Part shown: piece after piece, positions 41,116 to 51,859 of the stretch
Numbering within the stretch: position 1 is the first letter of the stretch
Layout: every line of letters starts with the position of its first letter
From: Acidobacteriaceae bacterium
Lineage (GTDB): Bacteria; Acidobacteriota; Terriglobia; Terriglobales; Acidobacteriaceae
NCBI GenBank assembly: GCA_003151985.1
Contig: PLZC01000254.1
Coordinates: forward strand, 7,459 to 60,566
Length of the DNA: 53,108 nt
Reading direction: 5' to 3'
Made by a program: the position numbers and the translations under genes
The notes under the pieces: generated by a model
Told to the model about the DNA's origin: nothing
Databases searched by the model: none
Seen by the model: only the letters and a program-made list of their open reading frames with translations

Positions 41116-42175
41116 TTAAATGCCCTGTTTGGCGATGCCCGAAAGAAACATCGCGGCTTGCCCCGCTGAGTTGCCACCACCCACCACGATCACGTCATCG
41201 TCGCGGCACAGCAAGGATTCCATCGCGGTTGCCGCATAATAGATTCCGCGATTTTCAAACTGGCTATAGTTTGCAACCGAAAGTCTGCGGTACTGCGCCC
41301 CGGAGGCCACGACCACAGAGCGCGAGCAGACGGGAGCACCGCCCGCCAGTGTCAGTTTATGGATGCCATCGATCTGCTCCGCCGTGATTACATCTCTGGA
41401 GATTGCCAATCGCACTCCAAACTTCAGCGCCTGCAACTGGGCGCGACTCGCAAGGCGTTGGCCGGAGATCCCCGTGGGGAAGCCGAGATAGTTTTCAATC
41501 TTTGAACTGGTGCCTGCCTGACCTCCGGGTGCGATGCCCTCGATCACAATGGTGCAGAGCCCTTCAGACGCCGCATAGACAGCAGCAGCGAGACCTGAGG
41601 GGCCAGCCCCGACGACTGTCACGTCATAAATCATATGCGGGTCAGGAAGCTCGGTGATGCCTAGCTCATCGGCGAGTTGCGTGATGGTGGGCCGATGCAA
41701 GGTGCGTCCATCGGAGAGGACGACAGCCGGAAGAGTAGGGTCATGGTCGGATCGGGAATCACCGACCTGAATCGATACCTCTTCTGTCGTTTCGACTATT
41801 CTGTGCGGATACGTGTTGCGGAGGAGGAAGCGCTGGAGTTGTATCGTCTCTACATCGCCGGCGAATCCCCTGAGCACAACTCCCCCGCCAGCTTCTTTGA
41901 TGATGCCAATGCGACGCCAGATAGTCGCCTGCATAATGAGATTCGCGATATCGCCCTCCGCGCGCATGAGTCGCTGCAGTCCTCTACGCGGTATGCGAAG
42001 AAGGTGGCTCTCCCCAACTGTCCGCGCTTCTACGAGCGATCCCTGAGAGTTCAGGAGATTCAACTCGCCGGAGAAGTCGAACCTTTGATGGTGGGCGATG
42101 ATTTTGGACTCTCCACTTAAGGCAGGAAGAGACATATCGATTTGCCCGTCAAGAACGACAAACATATCGACCTCC
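41116..42175 (-). pseudogene. Truncated cNMP-binding / thioredoxin-reductase-like FAD protein
   Basis: The frame encodes the middle of a two-domain protein. An N-terminal cyclic-nucleotide-binding-like domain (FVVLDGQIDMSLP, FSGELNLL) is followed by a thioredoxin-reductase-like flavoprotein with the FAD motif VVGAGPSGLAAAVYA, the GGQAG and ENYLGFP segments, and the NAD(P) motif VVGGGNSAGQAA. Known members are about 550 residues. Here the end is lost just after the NADPH-binding motif (MFLSGIAKQGI, stop), and the start of the cNMP domain is missing. The 5' truncation coincides with the start of an opposing permease fragment, so a deletion or rearrangement joined them. It is unlikely to be functional. 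Confidence 0.75.
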
Positions 42176-42683
42176 CGCTCATCCGGCAGAGATTTCCGGC
42201 GCCCTCGAGCGTACCATCCGCGGGCTCGATGCGGGCTTGCCATTCATTGTAAGGACGTGGAACCACGAGATGGGCTGGGCGTTGTTTGCTGCCCGGGTGG
42301 CTACAGTGGCGCTCGGAGTCCTGGGGATGCTCGGCGCCATGCTGGCCGTGACAGGAATCTTCGGCATGGCCTCCTACACCGTGAGCAAGCGGCTGCGCGA
42401 ACTGGGGATTCGCATGGCGCTCGGTGCGCGGCGGAACCAGGTATTGCGTGCGGCCCTGAGTCGAGCATTTGTGGTGCTGGCTGTGGGATCGGTAGCCGGC
42501 GTGGTGCTGGGCGTTCTGGCTTCGAAAGTGCTTTTGTACATCGTGTACCAGGCCGCGCCGAAGGAACCGGTGGTCCTGGCCGGTGTGGTTTTCACAATGC
42601 TGGTCCTGGGGCTGGTCGCGGCGTGGATTCCAGCGCAAAAGGCACTTGCCGTGAATCCCGTGATGTTGATGCGCGAAGAGTGA
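42176..42683 (+). pseudogene. C-terminal fragment of a MacB/FtsX-type ABC permease
   Basis: Only the last roughly 165 residues remain. The open frame runs in from about 42176 (LERTIRGLDAGLPF). It has three hydrophobic spans, the MacB/FtsX signature GIFGMASYTVSKRLRELGIRMALGA, given here in full only as IRMALGA with its flanks, and the terminal PAQKALAVNPVMLMREE typical of the acidobacterial permeases of this type. Complete proteins have about 800 residues. The lost part begins where the reductase pseudogene on the opposite strand starts, so both were cut by the same event. Confidence 0.75.
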
Positions 42684-42930
42684 AGAAGGTGCTATCAATC
42701 TGCCGCGGGGGGAATGAAGAACCATTCACGCAGACTAGCCTCGATAACGCCTAAGGGTCTTGAATTGGTATTGTGCCTGGTTGGTCGCACGATTGCGGCT
42801 TAGGATGACATGCATTGGAGTAGCGGAGTGTGCTGTCGACCGGGGTTGTTGGCGAGTTGGCGGTTTTACGTCCATAGGGACCAGAGCCCAAGGTAAAAAG
42901 AAGACGACTAATGAGATGGTCCGCCGCTTG

Positions 42931-42953
42931 CATCCTCTGACTGACAGAGGATG
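42931..42953 (+). repeat. Perfect 9-base-pair hairpin upstream of the IS110 transposase fragment
   Basis: CATCCTCTG and CAGAGGATG flank a five-base loop (ACTGA), 30 bases before the transposase start. IS110-group elements carry structured non-coding RNA in this upstream segment, so it could be part of a bridge-RNA region; it could also be a simple terminator. Confidence 0.6.
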
Positions 42954-42983
42954 TGGGTAGCAGTTATGAGGAGGATCATCATC

Positions 42984-43559
42984 ATGCAGATTCATTCGGT
43001 TGGCATCGACCTTGGGAAGACGACCTTTCACTGGGTGGCGCTGGGGGCAGCCGGCAAGGTGCTCGTGCGCAAGAAGTTCACACGGAAGCAACTACTGGCC
43101 TATACCGCGAACATGCAGACCTCGCTGATCGGCCTAGAGGCCTGCTCAGGTGCGCATTTTCTCGGACGGGCTCTGCGGAAGCAGGGACACGAGGTTCGAC
43201 TGATCGCAGCCCAGTTCGCCAAGCCGTTTGTGAAGTCCAACAAGAACGACTTCGTCGATGCGGAGGCGATCGCCGAGGCAGTTGAACGCAAGAACATGCG
43301 CTTCGTCCCGATCAAGACGGACGACCAACTGGATCTGCAGGCGATTCATCGTGTGCGCGACCGGCTCATCTCCCGTCGTACGGCGGTGATCAACCCTCCT
43401 TCACATGGCGGCGGCACGGGCAGCGAGTGCGAAAAGATCGCCACCTCCCTGCTCAAGTGTATCGACACCTGCATCGACACAAAACATGAGAAGGTCCGAA
43501 GGGTTCGCATCCGCAAAATCAACATCGATATCGAGCTTGACGAAGGCTGCCAGGATTAG
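42984..43559 (+). pseudogene. IS110-family transposase, 3'-truncated
   Basis: The N-terminal RuvC-like DEDD domain is clear: SVGIDLGKTTFHWVAL with the first Asp, SLIGLEACSGAHFLGRAL with the Glu, and FVKSNKNDFVDAEAIAEAV with the Asp pair. A GAGGAGG ribosome site lies about ten bases before the ATG. The homologous sequence stops near 43390 (RRTAVINPP), where full-length proteins continue into the helical and serine-bearing Tnp_20 domain. What follows (HGGGTGSECEKIATS...) is unrelated. A normal length is about 330-400 residues; only about 135 residues are genuine. It is an inactive relic. Confidence 0.8.
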
Positions 43560-44613: not shown

Positions 44614-46383
44614 ATGAGTTCCTGCATTGATTCAACGCTTCTTCCTCACCAACTGCGACCGCAGACCATCGATACTGTCGCAGAAGCCCTCTCGGCGACC
44701 GAGCGCAAGTACAAGGGGCCTTCACAGAACTCGCCGGCGATAAAGAGACTCTTAAGCGCGCTGCGGACCACCTGTAAGCACCTGTCCAAAATGCTCGGGG
44801 TACCGATAGAAAGCACTCATCTTAACGATCTGGTCGAGATTGATTCACGTTTGATCGCATACATCAAGGGGCTAGACGGTGATCATCAGTCTGCGGTTCA
44901 GTATGTATGCAACAAGAACAAGCTGCTCGACCTTGCCCATGAACTCGGTGGCTGGGCTTCGAGGGCATATATGCTGCGCAAGTCGTGGTTGCCTATCCGA
45001 CTGGCCCTGAAGGGAAAAGCTCGTGGCTGCATCGGGATTATCGAATACGCTATTGCGCACGGCCGGATGCCGGGGAACCTCACCGTGGAATTCATGGAGG
45101 ACTGGAGGCGGGCCATGCTTGGGCGCGGTCGCTCGCTGTTAACCGTCTCAGTCGAGGAGTCTCATTTCCGAACCACGCTGCGGGAAGGGCTGCAGCATTT
45201 GTTCCCGGCCTTCATCCTGGCCATCAAAAGGCCGCCAGAGCTGCTCATGCGCCTGGAGGAACTTCCAGAATCCCTACGAGATGAAATCCTCGAAGTGGTT
45301 CATTGGAAGACAGTCGACGAGGATCTTGACGATCGGGATGCAGATCTCATGATTCGCCCAGTGACGGGCGAGAATCTGCTTAAATATCTGTTGCAGCTTT
45401 GCGGATACGCAATACGAGAGCTTGAACTCCGCGGAATCCTCCATCTCCGCCAGTTAATGACTGAAGAGATCGTCTGTGGATTTGTGGATCTCCTGCTTAA
45501 AGATGGCCGTTGCAGAGCGAGAAGCATAATTTCCAAGCTAAGCACCATCCACTTTCTGACCCTGACATACCCAAAATTGAAGGGCAAAGACCAGAGCTGG
45601 TTTCGCGCCAAGCTGGACACCTTGCGCAAGGAGCAAAACGGCCGCGTGCAAGCCCGCAAGCTTGATGGCAATCCCGATTACGAGTCAGTCGCCGCGATTG
45701 CGTCGAAATTGCTCGCTCTCCGCCAGGCACCTAATGAGCTTACCGAGGTTGAACTCGCGTGGCTAACCCATGATGCTCTAGTTTTCTTAACCACCCTGGC
45801 GAATCCTCATCAATCAAGAAACATTTGCAAAGCGCGCATACACTTTCGTAAGCGCCTGAACATCTTCGAAAGTGAAATTTCTTCGGAGTTACTTTCCCAA
45901 ATCAAGCTTCCTGCGTGGGCGAAAGAAGTTCGCGATAAAGATCCTCGTGCGACCTTTGTTGTTTATCACGCCGTGGAGATGGAGACCAAGGCGGGTCAAG
46001 AGATATGGGAATGCTTCCCGCAGGAAGCTCTTAGTTTGTACAAGGAATATGTTCAGCACTACCGCCCCGTGCTCCTGCGCGGCTACGATCCAAATTCCAC
46101 CAGCCTCTTCTTTGCAAGAAATCGGAAACAACTCACGCAGAAGAGCCTTCTGAATCTTGTGTCCCGCCTCAGCATTCGGTATACGGGCAAGCGCATGACG
46201 GTCAAACTGTTCCGCGACCTGGTCGGTGCGAACATGCTGGCCAGCGGGGCCACGGTGGAAGAAGTCGCAGCGCGCTTATGGCAAATCGATCCAAACACGA
46301 CAGTACGGTATTACATCGGCGGCTATAACTCCTCCGATGCAGTTGCCGCACTGGAAGATGAACTCGCTGCGCTAGCGGCGTAG
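44614..46383 (+). CDS. Divergent tyrosine recombinase, large (first of a tandem pair)
   Basis: This 589-residue protein has a strong ribosome site (GGAGG six bases before ATG), so the open frame further upstream is not used. The C-terminal part fits the tyrosine-recombinase catalytic core: HQSRNICKARI for the first Arg, KRMTVKLFRDLVGANMLASG for the second Arg (about residue 534) with Lys in place of the usual His, ARLWQIDPNTTVRYYIGGY with Gln in place of the second His and Tyr at about 566-567. The N-terminal 300 residues are helical and unlike standard core-binding domains. It is followed 92 bases later by a similar-sized recombinase. It probably cuts and joins DNA at a site in this region, perhaps as a heteromer with its neighbour. 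Confidence 0.7.
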   Translation: MSSCIDSTLLPHQLRPQTIDTVAEALSATERKYKGPSQNSPAIKRLLSALRTTCKHLSKMLGVPIESTHLNDLVEIDSRLIAYIKGLDGDHQSAVQYVCNKNKLLDLAHELGGWASRAYMLRKSWLPIRLALKGKARGCIGIIEYAIAHGRMPGNLTVEFMEDWRRAMLGRGRSLLTVSVEESHFRTTLREGLQHLFPAFILAIKRPPELLMRLEELPESLRDEILEVVHWKTVDEDLDDRDADLMIRPVTGENLLKYLLQLCGYAIRELELRGILHLRQLMTEEIVCGFVDLLLKDGRCRARSIISKLSTIHFLTLTYPKLKGKDQSWFRAKLDTLRKEQNGRVQARKLDGNPDYESVAAIASKLLALRQAPNELTEVELAWLTHDALVFLTTLANPHQSRNICKARIHFRKRLNIFESEISSELLSQIKLPAWAKEVRDKDPRATFVVYHAVEMETKAGQEIWECFPQEALSLYKEYVQHYRPVLLRGYDPNSTSLFFARNRKQLTQKSLLNLVSRLSIRYTGKRMTVKLFRDLVGANMLASGATVEEVAARLWQIDPNTTVRYYIGGYNSSDAVAALEDELAALAA

Positions 46384-46475
46384 GAGCACCCCACTTCATA
46401 GTTCAACGGCCAAGTGCCGGACTCGTAGCATACGGAACCGGTATGCGGCCACCACGCCCAAACAAAGGAGACCCT

Positions 46476-48209
46476 ATGACTGTACTGATGGAAAATGCGC
46501 ATGCGTTCGAAGAACGCACCCAACTCACCGCATGCGACGAGAGTATGCAAGCGGTCCTAACCGCGATCCGGTATGACCTATCGCTGGATCCTGCCAGGAC
46601 CGAGAAACAGAGCAAAAAGCGGATGGAGGGTTTAGCCACCGTGGTGAACCACATGGCGAAGAGTCTTGGGACGACTCCGGAGCAACTGACGGTAAGTGAG
46701 GCGGTCGAAAACGAATCAACCTTTCTTGACTACGTGGCTCAGAGCAGCCTTTCGGCCGCAAGCAAGGAGCAATTACCGGTCAACCGCAACGCGGTGTTGC
46801 GTTATGCCCGGAAGTTTGGGTTCTCGCCGACGAGTTTCAGCATCTTCGAGGAATGGGAGCCGATTTTGGCAGTGGTCGGCGCTGGAAACGGCGCCAGCGC
46901 CATTGCGAACGACGCCATCCGGCGCAAGCGTCATCCGGTCGACTTTTCTGAGGCGGATCTCAGTATATGGGCAGACGCCTCGCTGGATGCCGGGAGAAGC
47001 TATTGCTATGTAAGGCAGGCGCAATCGGCCTTCCTGACCGCAATCCGGAATGCTGGCTCACACGTACAAAGCCGCCTTCCGCAGCTTGACGTGGCCGTTC
47101 GCAAGCTTCCGGGATACAGGCTACGGATCAAGGATATGCCGGAATCGCTTCGCGCCGAAATAACCGCAATGGTCGAAGCGGCGCGAGCTCAAGCCACACT
47201 CAGTACGGTAAGCATGTCGCCAGAGACGAAACACGAAATCATTGGGCACTTCGAGGGCTTCTGTGGATATGCAGTCCGGGTACCCGGAATGAACGTAGAA
47301 GATCTTGACCCTCTATTAAACGAACCGTTCGTGAAACAATTCGCATTTTGGCTCCACAACGACCGGCAACTGAAACGGACATCAGTTGTGGGGAGTCTGA
47401 GCAGAATCTTTTCGGTGCTTAAGGTCTGTCCGGAGTTTAAAGATCGCGACTTCAGTTGGATTTATAACATATATCGCAAACTGAGGAAGGAACCGGAGAG
47501 CGCCCTCAAGGAACGAAGGAGACAACACTATATCGCGTATCAGGAGCTTGCAGCGATTCCAGGACGAATGCGTTCTGAGCGCATGGCCCTCCGGAACCCT
47601 TCTCCTATTTCTTTGGGGTTTCGAATCATGGACGAGTTGCTTCTCACCTTCCTGATCCTGGCTCAGTATCCACCCCGTTTTGTCCGGGGGGCCGTAATCG
47701 GTCGCAACATATTCAAGGGCCCCATTCCCACAAGTGGGCCGCCGTTTAAGATTCCGACGTGGGCGCAAGAGTTGCTCCGCAAGGATCCCGGCACTCGCTT
47801 CTGGCAGTTTTGCTACGAGTCCAAGGAGGGACAACTTGTTCGCGGCCTAGTTCTGCGACAGGTGATTCCCTTGCTCGAACTCTACGTCAATCATTCCCGG
47901 CCATTGTTGATTGGCGCGGGCAACGACCCGGGAACTGTCTTCATTCACAGATCGCGAGGTCCCCTTTCGAGCTTCCGGCTCGGACAGCACGTCGGCAACC
48001 TTACGCGGCGGTACACAAAGATGCGCGTGACGCCGACCGCGATCCGTAGCAGCTTCGCTTACTACTGGCGGGAGATGCACCCTGACACGGATGCAGCCTT
48101 GGCCGCCATTCAGTGGGTCCAGTATCCCACCATCAAGATGCGTTATGACGAGGAGTCCCGTCAGCAACGCCGCGCGAGGGTGAATCGCCGCAAGAACCGG
48201 TACTCCTGA
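46476..48209 (+). CDS. Divergent tyrosine recombinase, large (second of a tandem pair)
   Basis: This 577-residue protein starts at an ATG with AGGAG five bases upstream. It resembles its neighbour in size, helical N-terminal half and C-terminal layout: PPRFVRGAVIGRNIF (first Arg), MRVTPTAIRSSFAYYW (second Arg about residue 524, with Thr at the usual His position), AAIQWVQYPTIKMRYDEES (Tyr about 557). The tail is very basic (RRARVNRRKNRYS). Overall identity to the first protein looks low, so this is an old pair and not a recent duplication. Tandem large recombinases are known in Tn554-type and RIT-type elements; whether this belongs to either is uncertain. A decayed copy of its C-terminus follows. 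Confidence 0.7.
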   Translation: MTVLMENAHAFEERTQLTACDESMQAVLTAIRYDLSLDPARTEKQSKKRMEGLATVVNHMAKSLGTTPEQLTVSEAVENESTFLDYVAQSSLSAASKEQLPVNRNAVLRYARKFGFSPTSFSIFEEWEPILAVVGAGNGASAIANDAIRRKRHPVDFSEADLSIWADASLDAGRSYCYVRQAQSAFLTAIRNAGSHVQSRLPQLDVAVRKLPGYRLRIKDMPESLRAEITAMVEAARAQATLSTVSMSPETKHEIIGHFEGFCGYAVRVPGMNVEDLDPLLNEPFVKQFAFWLHNDRQLKRTSVVGSLSRIFSVLKVCPEFKDRDFSWIYNIYRKLRKEPESALKERRRQHYIAYQELAAIPGRMRSERMALRNPSPISLGFRIMDELLLTFLILAQYPPRFVRGAVIGRNIFKGPIPTSGPPFKIPTWAQELLRKDPGTRFWQFCYESKEGQLVRGLVLRQVIPLLELYVNHSRPLLIGAGNDPGTVFIHRSRGPLSSFRLGQHVGNLTRRYTKMRVTPTAIRSSFAYYWREMHPDTDAALAAIQWVQYPTIKMRYDEESRQQRRARVNRRKNRYS

Positions 48210-48261: not shown

Positions 48262-48320
48262 ATTCAGTGGGTCCGGTACCCAGACAATCAAGATGCGTCA
48301 CCAAGAGAACTCCCGCCGCA
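48262..48320 (+). repeat. Decayed duplicate of the second recombinase's 3' end
   Basis: ATTCAGTGGGTCC (48262-48274) is identical to 48108-48120, and the following ATCAAGATGCGT and related bases also match, with one base inserted and the codon for the putative catalytic Tyr changed to His. It is too short to code for anything and is probably a relic of a third related recombinase. Confidence 0.6.
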
Positions 48321-48488
48321 GCGATGCGCTCGGGTGAGCGACCTCAGCAATCGCGCGACGAAGGAATCGCACTCTTGCAAGTCCTTCCCCGAACCCAATG
48401 CACTCTTCGTGTCAGCTGTGCTGCGGCGGTTACCAAGTGTCACGCAGAGAACCAAAACAAATCTCCCAATCTAACTTTGAGTCCTCGA

Positions 48489-48725
48489 ATGACTTCCGAT
48501 CTCTCCGATCCTCGGGCCGAACACGATCCGTTGCTGAATGCGAAGGAAGTCGCTGCTTGGCTTGGGGTCACCGAGGACTGGGTCTGGGATCACTCAACGC
48601 GGAGAGCGCCATTCCTCCCGGCAATCTGGCTTTCTGATGGCGCCCTGCGCTTTCGCCGCAATAGGATTGCCGAATTCATTGACGACAGGGAACGCCTTTC
48701 CGCCAAACGCCGGAAGCGCCGTTAA
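48489..48725 (+). CDS. Excisionase-like DNA-binding protein (MerR-type HTH_17)
   Basis: This 78-residue protein contains the AlpA/excisionase helix-turn-helix: DPLLNAKEVAAWLGVTEDWVW, then RAPFLPAIWLSDGALRFRRNRIAEFIDDRE as a wing in a typical small HTH_17 protein, and a basic C-terminus (AKRRKRR). ATG 48489 is chosen because the frame upstream carries no motif. It lies 46 bases before the integrase, the usual xis-int order. It would bend or recruit integrase at the attachment site during excision, or act as a regulator. Confidence 0.75.
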   Translation: MTSDLSDPRAEHDPLLNAKEVAAWLGVTEDWVWDHSTRRAPFLPAIWLSDGALRFRRNRIAEFIDDRERLSAKRRKRR

Positions 48726-48771
48726 GAGCGGTAACAGGTCGGCGGTTCTCACCACCGAAACTGAGGAACTA

Positions 48772-50058
48772 ATGGGTAAAGCAACGTACGGTACGGGATC
48801 CGTAAGGCCGCGGGGAAAGAAGTGGTACGGCTATCCACCCCGCATTCGAACAAAGGACCCTGTTACAGGTAATACAATCGGGTCGCGGAAGCCGATCGTC
48901 CTCGGGGCGAAGTCGAAGATGACCAAGACCGAAGCTCGTGACGCTCTGGCACGCGAGATCGCCAAGCGGCGGGGGTGGTTCAGAGCGAACGGGCAGATGA
49001 TGAACGATGGCTCTGTCACCCTCAACTGGTTTTGCAACAATCGCTATTTCCCGCTCAAGGAGGGGGATTGGAAGGAGGAAACTGCAAAGACGAAGAAGGG
49101 TCTGATCCAGACGAACATCCTGGATGATCTAGGCGAGATCCCATTAGCGAGCTTCGATCGGTTCACGCTTCAAATGCAAATGACCAAGCTGGCAAAAACC
49201 TGCTCCAAGGACACGGTGCTTCAGATGCGTGCGTATCTGCGCGACATGTTCGCCGAGGCGATGGATCAGGATTTCCTGTTCAAGGATCCTGCGGCGCGGG
49301 TCAAGATTCCACCGCAGCTTCGTGAAAGGGACACTACGACGCTCACCTGGGATCAGCTGCGCATGGCGCTCGAAGTTCTCTTTGAGCGCGACCGCATCGT
49401 TCTTGAGCTCGACATGACCGATGCCCTGCGGCCCAGCGAACTGTTTGCGCTGCGGTGGAAGTGCTTCGATTTCGAGAACTCTCGGCTGATCATCCAGGAG
49501 ACCGTTTACAAGGGCAAGATCCGGCCATGGGGCAAGACGCGCAAGAGTCTGACGCCGGTTCATCTTCCCCCGGTGCTGGTCTCCGACCTCAATGCGTGGA
49601 AGGCAAAGTGCCCGGATTCATCTCCGGAAGCCTTCATTTTTCGCAGCGATACCGGAAGCTTCCTCGACACTGGAAATTACAGGAAGCGGGTGCTTCATCA
49701 GATTGCGGAGATTCTGAATCTTCCAAACCTGACTTTCCAGATCATCCGCCGCACGATTGCGACGCTCAGCCAGACAAAAGGATCTGTCAAGTCGACACAG
49801 GGTCTATTGCGGCATGCGCGCACGCCAACCACCACCGATGGCTACATGCAAGTCATTCCGGAATGCGTCGAGCAGATGGTTGACTCGATCCACGGCGAGC
49901 TTCGGAAGTCGAGCACGGCTGCGGCTGATACGGCTAAGATGTCCACGAATCGGCGCGCTAAAGAACGACGTCGCCGCTTGGGAAAAAACACAAATTTGGC
50001 ACCAATTGGCACCAAATTGTCTTCGGCTGGCTTGGAGGACACCGACGTAACTTGTTGA
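48772..50058 (+). CDS. int: Phage/genomic-island-type tyrosine integrase
   Basis: This 428-residue integrase begins with MGKATYGTGSVRPRGKKWYG, a short beta arm-binding domain (AP2-like), then a core-binding helical region (about residues 75-185) and a catalytic domain: TDALRPSELFALRWKCFDF for the first Arg, FQIIRRTIATLSQTKG for the second Arg, LLRHARTPTTTDGYMQ with His and the nucleophilic Tyr near residue 358. The frame is open upstream to 48538, overlapping the excisionase-like gene, so ATG 48772 is used. The stop is 17 bases before a tRNA-Ala 3' fragment; tandem repeats in its last codons look like arm-type sites. It probably integrated the element into that tRNA gene. Confidence 0.9.
   Translation: MGKATYGTGSVRPRGKKWYGYPPRIRTKDPVTGNTIGSRKPIVLGAKSKMTKTEARDALAREIAKRRGWFRANGQMMNDGSVTLNWFCNNRYFPLKEGDWKEETAKTKKGLIQTNILDDLGEIPLASFDRFTLQMQMTKLAKTCSKDTVLQMRAYLRDMFAEAMDQDFLFKDPAARVKIPPQLRERDTTTLTWDQLRMALEVLFERDRIVLELDMTDALRPSELFALRWKCFDFENSRLIIQETVYKGKIRPWGKTRKSLTPVHLPPVLVSDLNAWKAKCPDSSPEAFIFRSDTGSFLDTGNYRKRVLHQIAEILNLPNLTFQIIRRTIATLSQTKGSVKSTQGLLRHARTPTTTDGYMQVIPECVEQMVDSIHGELRKSSTAAADTAKMSTNRRAKERRRRLGKNTNLAPIGTKLSSAGLEDTDVTC
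49996..50015. repeat. Tandem arm-type repeat TTGGCACCAA x2
   Basis: TTGGCACCAA occurs twice in perfect tandem (49996-50005 and 50006-50015) inside the last codons of the integrase gene, about 60 bases before the tRNA-derived core. This spacing is usual for integrase arm sites. Confidence 0.6.
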
Positions 50059-50074
50059 TTTTGATTGGGATATT

Positions 50075-50127
50075 TGGTGGACCTGATCGGGATCGAACCG
50101 ATGACCTCTTCCATGCCATGGAAGCAG
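50075..50127 (-). tRNA. tRNA-Ala(GGC) 3' half (attachment core)
   Basis: On the minus strand the sequence has an anticodon stem-loop (CTTCC, ATGGCAT, GGAAG; anticodon GGC), variable loop, intact T-arm (ATCGG, TTCGATC, CCGAT) and an acceptor 3' strand ending ACCA. The 5' half (D-arm, first acceptor strand) is absent: the adjoining sequence at 50128 and above does not fit. It is therefore an attachment core and not a working tRNA. The CCA end faces the integrase. Confidence 0.8.
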
Positions 50128-50162
50128 TCAAACCGCAAAATATAGACGGCACAGTACTTATG

Positions 50163-50224
50163 AACCGGCACAACCGGCAGAAACGGCCCAAGGGGCGCTA
50201 TTTGCGGGCAAAATGCGGGCAAAA
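50163..50224. repeat. Tandem arm-type repeats on the far side of the tRNA-Ala core
   Basis: AACCGGCA occurs at 50163-50170 and 50172-50179. TGCGGGCAAAA occurs in perfect tandem at 50203-50213 and 50214-50224. Together with the pair at 49996 they flank the tRNA core on both sides. Confidence 0.55.
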
Positions 50225-50401: not shown

Positions 50402-51859
50402 ATGTCCCCGGCTAGTAGAATTTCACCAGTGACAAATCAAGACCTGCTGACACTCGTTCGACGAGGCGAATCCGAACAGCTTGAATTCAAGCAGAGCTCC
50501 GCTCAGTTTCCCAGGGCCGGCGAGACCCTTTGCGCCTTCATGAACGGTCGGGGCGGACAAGTGCTGATCGGGGTTCGGCCAGACGGTTCGGTTAAAGGTC
50601 AAACAATCGCGGATAAGACTTTTCAGGAACTGGCGCAGGTTCTGCGCCGCTTTGATCCTCCCATTCCGGTTGAAACCGAGCGGATTCCAGTGGGCGCGAA
50701 TGGCCTTGAAGTCCTGGTTTTGAAAGCCATTTCTACGGCTGACAGCCTGCCTTGCGCATACGATGGGCGTCCGTACCAGCGTGTCGGAACGACCACCTCG
50801 GTCATGCCACAGGAAACCTACCAGAGGATTCTCCTTGAACGCACGCATTCGCGGCATCGCTGGGAGAACGAAATTGCCGAAATAACGATCGATGAACTGG
50901 ACGCCCAGGAGATTCGGCGAACGATCCAAACCGGTATCGCGGGCGGCCGGCTGGCCGCCGATACCTCCGCCGACGATCTGACGGACGTCCTGGACAGATT
51001 GGGACTCCGAGTTCGCGGAGCCCTTGTCAATGCGGCTGTTGTCGTGTTCGGTCGCGAGTTTCTGCCCCATTACCCTCAATGCCAGCTGAGGCTTGCACGA
51101 TTTCGCGGCACCGACAAGAACGAGTTCCTGGACCAACGCCAGCTTCATGGACATACCTTCGATTTGCTATCCGAGGCGATGCAGTTTCTGACCCGGCATC
51201 TACCGGTCGCGGGCCGCATTGAACCTGGGGTGTTCGAGCGTGTTGATGAGCCGCTCTTTCCTCCGATCGCGCTGCGCGAAGCATTGGTCAATGCCTTCTG
51301 TCATCGGGATTACGCTCAGGCAGGTGGGGCAGTGAGCGTGGCAATATACGATGATCGCCTTGAGATATGGAGTTCCGGGGAACTTCCGCTCGGCATGAAG
51401 GTTGAGGATCTCAAGCGGGAGCATTTGTCGCGACCGCGAAATCCGTTGATCGCGGAGGTCTTTTACCGACGAGGGCTGGTTGAGCGCTGGGGACGAGGAA
51501 CGCAGAAGATTGTTGAATTATGTCTACGGGCCGGTCATCCGGAACCGGAGTTCTTGGAGGTCGCCGGAGCAGTAGGCGTTCGGTTCCTGCCGAGCGGGTA
51601 TGTGGCTCCTCTTCGCGTTGCACATGACCTTACGGATCGGCAGCGCCGAATCCTCCAGGTTATCGCCGGCGGAAAGGAGTCCTCGTTTGCCAATATCCGC
51701 GCACAAATCAATTCATCTGTTGCCGACCGTACTTTGCGGGACGATCTGCTTCATTTGAAAAGACTTGGCATGATTGATTCTCGCGGACACGGTCGAGGAG
51801 CCGTGTGGTTTTTGGGCGCAACGCAGAAGTTTGAGGGTGAACCGAATAAGGCGGAATAA
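50402..51859 (+). CDS. AlbA_2 (Schlafen-type) domain regulator with ATPase-like and winged-helix parts
   Basis: This 485-residue protein has an N-terminal AlbA_2 domain (SEQLEFKQSSAQFPRAGETLCAFMNGRGG in parts, then QVLIGVRPDGSVKG), a middle region with the HATPase_c_4-like block ALREALVNAFCHRDYAQ and VAIYDDRLEIWSSGELP, and a C-terminal winged helix (RQRRILQVIAGGKESSFANIRAQI, RTLRDDLLHLKRLGMIDSRG). This is the common divergent-AAA-4 or 'ATP-binding protein' family, often called transcriptional regulator and frequent in genomic islands and defence islands. ATG 50402 is used; GTG 50429 is possible. Its stop codon lies within a tandem repeat. It may regulate neighbouring genes or take part in a defence response; that is inference. 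Confidence 0.82.
   Translation: MSPASRISPVTNQDLLTLVRRGESEQLEFKQSSAQFPRAGETLCAFMNGRGGQVLIGVRPDGSVKGQTIADKTFQELAQVLRRFDPPIPVETERIPVGANGLEVLVLKAISTADSLPCAYDGRPYQRVGTTTSVMPQETYQRILLERTHSRHRWENEIAEITIDELDAQEIRRTIQTGIAGGRLAADTSADDLTDVLDRLGLRVRGALVNAAVVVFGREFLPHYPQCQLRLARFRGTDKNEFLDQRQLHGHTFDLLSEAMQFLTRHLPVAGRIEPGVFERVDEPLFPPIALREALVNAFCHRDYAQAGGAVSVAIYDDRLEIWSSGELPLGMKVEDLKREHLSRPRNPLIAEVFYRRGLVERWGRGTQKIVELCLRAGHPEPEFLEVAGAVGVRFLPSGYVAPLRVAHDLTDRQRRILQVIAGGKESSFANIRAQINSSVADRTLRDDLLHLKRLGMIDSRGHGRGAVWFLGATQKFEGEPNKAE

Follow-up and report, generated by a model that had tools for sequence, protein, structure and literature searches.

What are two very large tyrosine recombinases, neither with the standard active site, doing side by side in the genome of an acidobacterium? 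The question is raised by a stretch of 53,108 nucleotides (the window, from here on) from an Acidobacteriaceae bacterium (contig PLZC01000254.1, positions 7,459 to 60,566). In it gene A (44614..46383, forward strand, 589 amino acids) is followed after 92 nucleotides by gene B (46476..48209, forward strand, 577 amino acids). A preliminary description, made from the letters of the window, had taken the pair for a possible heteromeric recombinase of a novel mobile element. It was right that two large recombinase genes lie next to each other, since both open reading frames are uninterrupted, and right that both proteins keep the two arginines and the tyrosine of the catalytic core. The pair does not, however, stand as a whole machine: at 48414-50058, downstream of it, come a gene for a small helix-turn-helix (HTH) protein and one for a third recombinase, an ordinary integrase. 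In most relatives, moreover, A and B have a single large counterpart, which an ordinary integrase often accompanies. I think it on the whole probable, though far from certain, that A and B form the large-recombinase part of an A-B-HTH-integrase module of a site-specific integrative island. This view draws on the membership of A and B in a protein family, their gene order, the pairing of their clades, purifying selection, changes in the active site, an association with tRNA genes, and repeats around three of their relatives.

Sequence comparison places both proteins among the tyrosine recombinases, as paralogs (28% identical) within a family of enzymes of about 580 amino acids. Standard models scarcely recognize them. 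A matches the Pfam Phage_integrase model weakly (E 1.9e-4, under the gathering score). B has no hit in Pfam or PHROG, and the only one in NCBIfam is to an unrelated model (E 0.076). The C-terminal catalytic domains of both contain Arg-I, Arg-II, and the nucleophilic tyrosine that mark the superfamily; a profile of the family retrieves XerD (1a0p) from the sequences in PDB (E 8.6e-6); and a profile of the B clade, built from three sequences, aligns nearly end to end with that of the canonical family (522 columns, hhalign probability 100, E 2.4e-59). The profiles of the A and B clades, three sequences each, showed no significant match to ordinary integrases, and no profile matched the first 230 residues significantly. 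One relative has a match to a SAM-like integrase domain in that region (E 1.7e-4).

Among the relatives, a lone large recombinase is commoner than a tandem pair. I took a census of 29 family loci (loci carry numbers beginning with L, genomes with G), from which duplicates (L055-L061, L063-L065), the alphaproteobacterial loci L068 and L069, and L052, whose match extends over about 63 residues, were excluded. An ordinary integrase lies downstream, on the same strand and within 1.3 kb, in 15 of the 29, and all eight loci examined upstream of the large gene have an HTH gene of one family there. Ten of the 15 integrases end within 250 nt of the antisense 3' end of a tRNA gene. The tRNA is that for lysine at L037, L046, L048, L049, and L100, for aspartate at L102 and L107, for methionine at L041, and for alanine at L103 and in the window. 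As for the other five, the tRNA fragment at L101 lies in the other orientation, L036, L038, and L099 have no tRNA, and the sequence of L051 ends at that point. Seven of the ten tRNA cores beside an integrase lack the 5' half of the gene. If elements had inserted in tandem, then an intact tRNA should be found further out, beyond the fragment. One was seen in two of five loci (G002 and G506) and none in the other three (G499, G844, and G762) within the DNA examined.

The window contains the same association. After B comes the HTH gene (48414..48725, forward strand, start codon not fixed), whose product resembles excisionases (PHROG 66, E 3.9e-6; HTH_17, E 0.0098, below the Pfam cut-off), and then the ordinary tyrosine integrase (48769..50058, forward strand, 429 amino acids from this start; Phage_integrase, E 7.8e-10; PHROG 1 integrase, E 5.7e-39). 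The integrase adjoins a tRNA 3' end: 16 nt past its stop codon, on the reverse strand, lies the 3' half of a tRNA-Ala (50075..50124, anticodon GGC by inspection), a putative attachment core. The same fragment is found downstream of the integrase of L103, where the arm beyond the fragment (50125..50204 in the window) is partly conserved as well (79% over 139 nt including the core).

At least three family loci are islands. Each has a single large recombinase and is flanked by perfect direct repeats, 23 or 24 nt long, of the 3' end of tRNA-Lys. In the complete genome G002 (L046 7645-14719, G002:C1) the repeats are 7,052 bp apart and enclose the cyclase of a cyclic-oligonucleotide-based antiphage signaling system (CBASS) with a Cap15-type effector. 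In G499 (L049 7794-18596, G499:C17) they are 10,780 bp apart, and the island carries a Cas9 of 1254 aa, Cas1, and a CRISPR-like array whose repeats are 36 nt long. In G762 (L037 7385-14250, G762:C7) the cargo between repeats of 23 nt, 6,841 bp apart, is a TIR-domain protein together with an AIPR protein. At their far ends the islands of G002 and G499 have 128 bp in common, 87.5% identical. The preliminary description had linked the pair to mobile DNA, and its relatives are indeed tied to islands. Comparison of one to three neighboring proteins in each of nine loci with PADLOC found clear defense genes in five: the three islands, L039 (type I restriction-modification), and L102 (type IIG/ISP). 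The genes at the last two are neighbors of a family gene and only putatively part of an island. A sixth locus, L048, has a CRISPR-like array, and its two scanned proteins, which lie past the tRNA, have no PADLOC match. The neighbors scanned at L100, L103, and L040 gave nothing clear.

Some smaller features of these islands may be recorded here. That of G002 stands in tandem behind another integrase, which adjoins an intact tRNA-Lys. A 21-22-nt inverted match to the CRISPR-like repeat, at about 18369-18390 of L049, could be the anti-repeat of a tracrRNA. The array of L048 (1-780, G499:C114), a second locus of the same genome and one with an intact tRNA-Lys, has a repeat nearly the same as that of L049.

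The tandem pair is a derived form of this single-recombinase arrangement. A search for the pair in other Acidobacteriota, which the preliminary description had recommended, found A and B together in three genomes: that of the window and G726 and G887 (loci L036 and L099), which belong to another genus. A fourth pair, in G053 (L050), is truncated, and its B is a truncated ortholog. In a tree of the family the A clade and the B clade each have support of 100/100. In each, the copies of G726 and G887 group together to the exclusion of that of the window, and because the two clades have the same internal order, the partners seem to have stayed together. The order A-B-HTH-integrase is also common to the three genomes, with HTH genes of different types.

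A number of observations weigh against an island module that includes the pair, and they should be faced together. Fourteen of the 29 loci have no downstream integrase. Several of these are fragments or contig ends, and at least six (L040, L042, L066, L104, L105, and L106) have more than 1.7 kb of sequence downstream. The right flank of the G002 island is without a full counterpart, such as an empty site would offer, in the other 79 genomes of the genus (two have weak partial matches). No second tRNA-Ala core was found in the window, at the left end of the contig, or in the window's own genome (an assembly 73% complete), and in the window's putative island no defense gene or other cargo was recognized. 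Finally, the window integrase has no BLAST match at E 1e-3 to the integrases of G726 and G887, which themselves have no tRNA beside them, and its kinship with the integrases found in the single-gene elements is distant (21-25% identity). For these last reasons the pair and the tRNA integrase could be accidental neighbors. The same facts favor the strongest of the alternatives, that the pair is the private machinery of a transposable element, A and B working together after the fashion of Tn554 or of the strand-biased circularizing elements (SE), while the tRNA-Ala integrase and the HTH gene belong to a different island that happens to adjoin it. I consider this rather improbable. Against it stand the recurrence of the order A-B-HTH-integrase in three genomes, which represent two genera, and the nine other loci in which a single large recombinase lies upstream of a tRNA-site integrase.

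A second alternative turns on the active sites. In the family at large these are conventional: among 21 members outside the pairs (one heading the trio at L047, two partial; the two short L047 paralogs and two Roseomonas proteins are excluded), lysine, His-II, Arg-II, His-III, and tyrosine are kept in every one and Arg-I in 19. The window proteins depart from this. A reads R, K, Lys at position II, R, Gln at position III, Tyr, and B reads R, K, Thr, R, Val, Tyr. The preliminary description had both histidines replaced in both proteins, and it named the lysine and glutamine of A and the threonine of B correctly; position III of B, which it had read as a shifted Gln/Trp, is the valine of 'QWV'. 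Moreover, a lysine at the second position is no defect, the site being known as 'His/Lys-II' in tyrosine recombinases, where either residue is accepted. The three intact pairs give R-K-K-R-(Q/H/H)-Y for A, with Lys-II in every copy and Gln-III confined to the window, the other two having His-III. For B they give R-(K/L/L)-T-R-(V/V/I)-Y, both histidines lost in all three and the conserved lysine in two. With lysine acceptable at position II, the site of A looks plausible and A is probably catalytic; that of B is probably impaired. The pattern is more than chance, for Lys-II recurs in all three copies of A, and Thr-II and Val/Ile-III in all three of B, the orthologs being 49-55% identical to the window proteins.

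One might go further and suppose that A and B perform no strand exchange at all and are only regulators or binders of target sites. There is precedent in TnsF of Tn6022, an inactive tyrosine recombinase that serves as a target selector (PMC10293859), and the losses in B speak for such a role. For the pair as a whole it is unlikely: the tyrosine and both arginines are kept in A and B of all three intact pairs, A has in addition Lys-beta, Lys-II, and, in two of three copies, His-III, and the relatives outside the pairs keep K-H-R-H-Y without exception. A second tandem array, at L047 (592-4133, G024:C201), consists of a full canonical copy followed by a couple of short paralogs, and in one of these the catalytic tyrosine is changed to phenylalanine. 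It seems, therefore, that the family has repeatedly undergone duplication with loss of catalytic residues.

Both proteins are under purifying selection, to judge from the ratio of nonsynonymous to synonymous substitution (dN/dS) between orthologs, which is 0.08-0.14 in A and 0.12-0.21 in B; most comparisons have dS saturated or close to it, and two yielded no value. That the pair is decaying and has no function is thus scarcely credible: the DNA at 41-43.6 kb does hold truncated genes for an IS110 transposase and a reductase and a piece of FtsX, and there is a broken copy of the end of B at 48262..48315, and a truncated pair in G053, but both reading frames of the window are intact, the active-site pattern recurs across two genera, and the low dN/dS leads me to reject simple decay. 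The broken copy, on the forward strand, is a frameshifted remnant of a second C-terminal coding sequence of B, its pieces corresponding to 48108-48127 (90% identical) and 48129-48160 (78%).

How, then, might a module of A, B, HTH protein, and integrase work? The best reading, by analogy, is a multi-recombinase integration machine that would operate like those of Tsy, SE, or GInt, without assigned membership in any of them. That the proteins act jointly, which of them is catalytic, and that the island moves are what I infer. The ordinary integrase would recognize the 3' end of tRNA-Ala. The large recombinase, which in most relatives is a single protein whose active site is complete, would be a partner that binds the ends of the element or the target and joins in strand exchange. 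Integrase and large recombinase would likely act together on the ends of the island, with the HTH protein setting the direction, as Tsy suggests. In the tandem branch the large partner would have been duplicated and its roles split, A remaining probably catalytic (Arg-I, Lys, Lys-II, Arg-II, and Tyr) and B, its active site impaired, becoming a conserved subunit for binding or architecture, like GinC in GInt or Tfp in SE. A heteromeric complex of A and B is plausible.

Elements that pair an ordinary recombinase with a large one are already known (Tn554, SE, GInt, and Tsy), so that the novelty that the preliminary description had supposed is borne out only in part. Tsy requires an ordinary tyrosine recombinase, an HTH protein, and a larger tyrosine recombinase, the activities of both recombinases being essential (PMC10293859), and the module of the window is like it in combining in one cassette an ordinary recombinase, a small HTH protein, and a larger protein with a recombinase domain of its own. 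It is unlike it in that the N-terminus of TnsF-like proteins is a zinc finger and their target is comM (PMC10293859), whereas the apparent target here is a tRNA gene. Zinc-finger-like spacing turned up, in a pattern check, in one of 25 family members (L041) and in neither A nor B, and tRNA 3' ends, instead of an insertion in comM, were found beside the integrase, although comM itself was not searched for. The likeness to TnsF and the differences from it were judged by description.

SE encode IntA, Tfp, IntB, and Srap, of which Tfp is without catalytic residues (PMC10214605). An operon of several proteins of recombinase fold, one lacking catalytic residues, together with a small protein, recalls the window, but the hosts reported are Gammaproteobacteria and the targets named are not tRNA genes (PMC10214605). 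I reject membership: four proteins beside blaGMA-1 of pAQU1, assigned to an SE module by their order, gave E 0.15 or worse. GInt (GinABCD) has three recombinases, GinC being without a catalytic residue, and a small helix-loop-helix protein at one end of the island (PMC5385486). The three recombinases with one catalytically deficient, the small protein, the direct repeats, and the cargo are all points of likeness. The small gene is the last in ginABCD, whereas in the window module it is third and the integrase last. An operon of pHG1, judged GInt-like by size and order only, matched the family at best at E 0.001. This operon (L110 184-4300) encodes two proteins of 626 aa and one of 116 aa in a row, one of them annotated as an integrase, and lies near recombinase trios.

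In Tn554 and its actinobacterial relatives one long and one typical tyrosine recombinase stand side by side (PMC3414803), whereas the window has two large recombinases, an HTH gene, and a tRNA site; here too the comparison is by description only. RIT elements (RitABC) offer three adjacent tyrosine recombinases, but these are of 315-410 aa (PMC10214605) as against 577-589 aa for the window pair. Nor are the 34-bp terminal inverted repeats of RIT matched. Around the pair the repeats, inverted or direct, are short ones only, the enclosing arms being of 18 nt (38161/50908) and 14 nt (44066/49720). Membership in RIT is rejected as well: of six proteins from two trios of pHG1, whose assignment as RitA, RitB, and RitC is my own labeling, one matched the hidden Markov model of the family at E 5e-6 (15 bits) and five at E 0.004 or worse. 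That single hit is the best among the RIT-like and SE proteins tested, none at family level, which bears out the earlier remark that the pair does not fit RIT.

A bolder version of the proposal is possible, though I would not expect it to hold in full. Here the islands would form a new, defense-carrying class with a heteromeric recombinase composed of a tRNA-site integrase and a partner of about 580 aa. The tandem branch would have two partners, B being a non-catalytic architectural one, and would divide the labor within a synapse of three recombinases. The single-partner relatives would transfer complete Cas9 or CBASS systems from one bacterium to another. The matter bears on why some mobile elements (Tn554, SE, GInt, RIT) need two tyrosine recombinases, or even three, when one of these is dead or half-dead: in this case single-partner and derived tandem forms coexist within one bacterial family, and their roles can be compared. 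The family is also a likely vehicle for compact defense systems (CBASS, type II CRISPR-Cas9, TIR-AIPR) in Acidobacteriota, on which islands no paper was found by title and beginning of abstract. Nor, among open-licence papers judged in the same way, was there a description of the family of ~580-aa recombinases.

In samples drawn from a single phylum, the recombinase family was found in nine of 80 genomes of the window's own genus (E 1e-10 or better, some of them fragments only), at least 19 of 398 in the family sample (E 1e-30), at least 11 of 399 in the class sample (E 1e-15), and at least four of 396 in the phylum sample, three of these through the generic catalytic stretch only. A scan of contigs across phyla with two patterns, fitted to canonical members and blind to genes of the A and B type, found 11 loci, ten from Acidobacteria and one from Verrucomicrobia. 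IMG/VR yielded one contig with an alignment of the canonical family and none with a mixed alignment. Searches of plasmids with A and with B found nothing, and a search with a canonical member found three partial matches, all alphaproteobacterial.

Alphaproteobacterial plasmids (of Roseomonas, Pukyongiella, and Azospirillum; L068, L115, L116, and L117) contain cassettes of an HTH gene, a large recombinase, and a short one. They resemble the window module in having an HTH gene and then tandem recombinases, and they are distant kin of the family: among 15 proteins searched, the two of Roseomonas (L068) match it (E 4e-13 and 1e-21). They differ in that the second gene encodes 289-349 aa, and is split in two in Azospirillum, rather than being a second large one.

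The decayed DNA to the left of the pair occupies 41116-43559, and its truncated reductase-like gene includes a cNMP domain. To the right of the tRNA arm a protein with Schlafen/AlbA_2 and RecG-C-like regions is encoded at 50402-51859, perhaps as cargo of a neighboring island.

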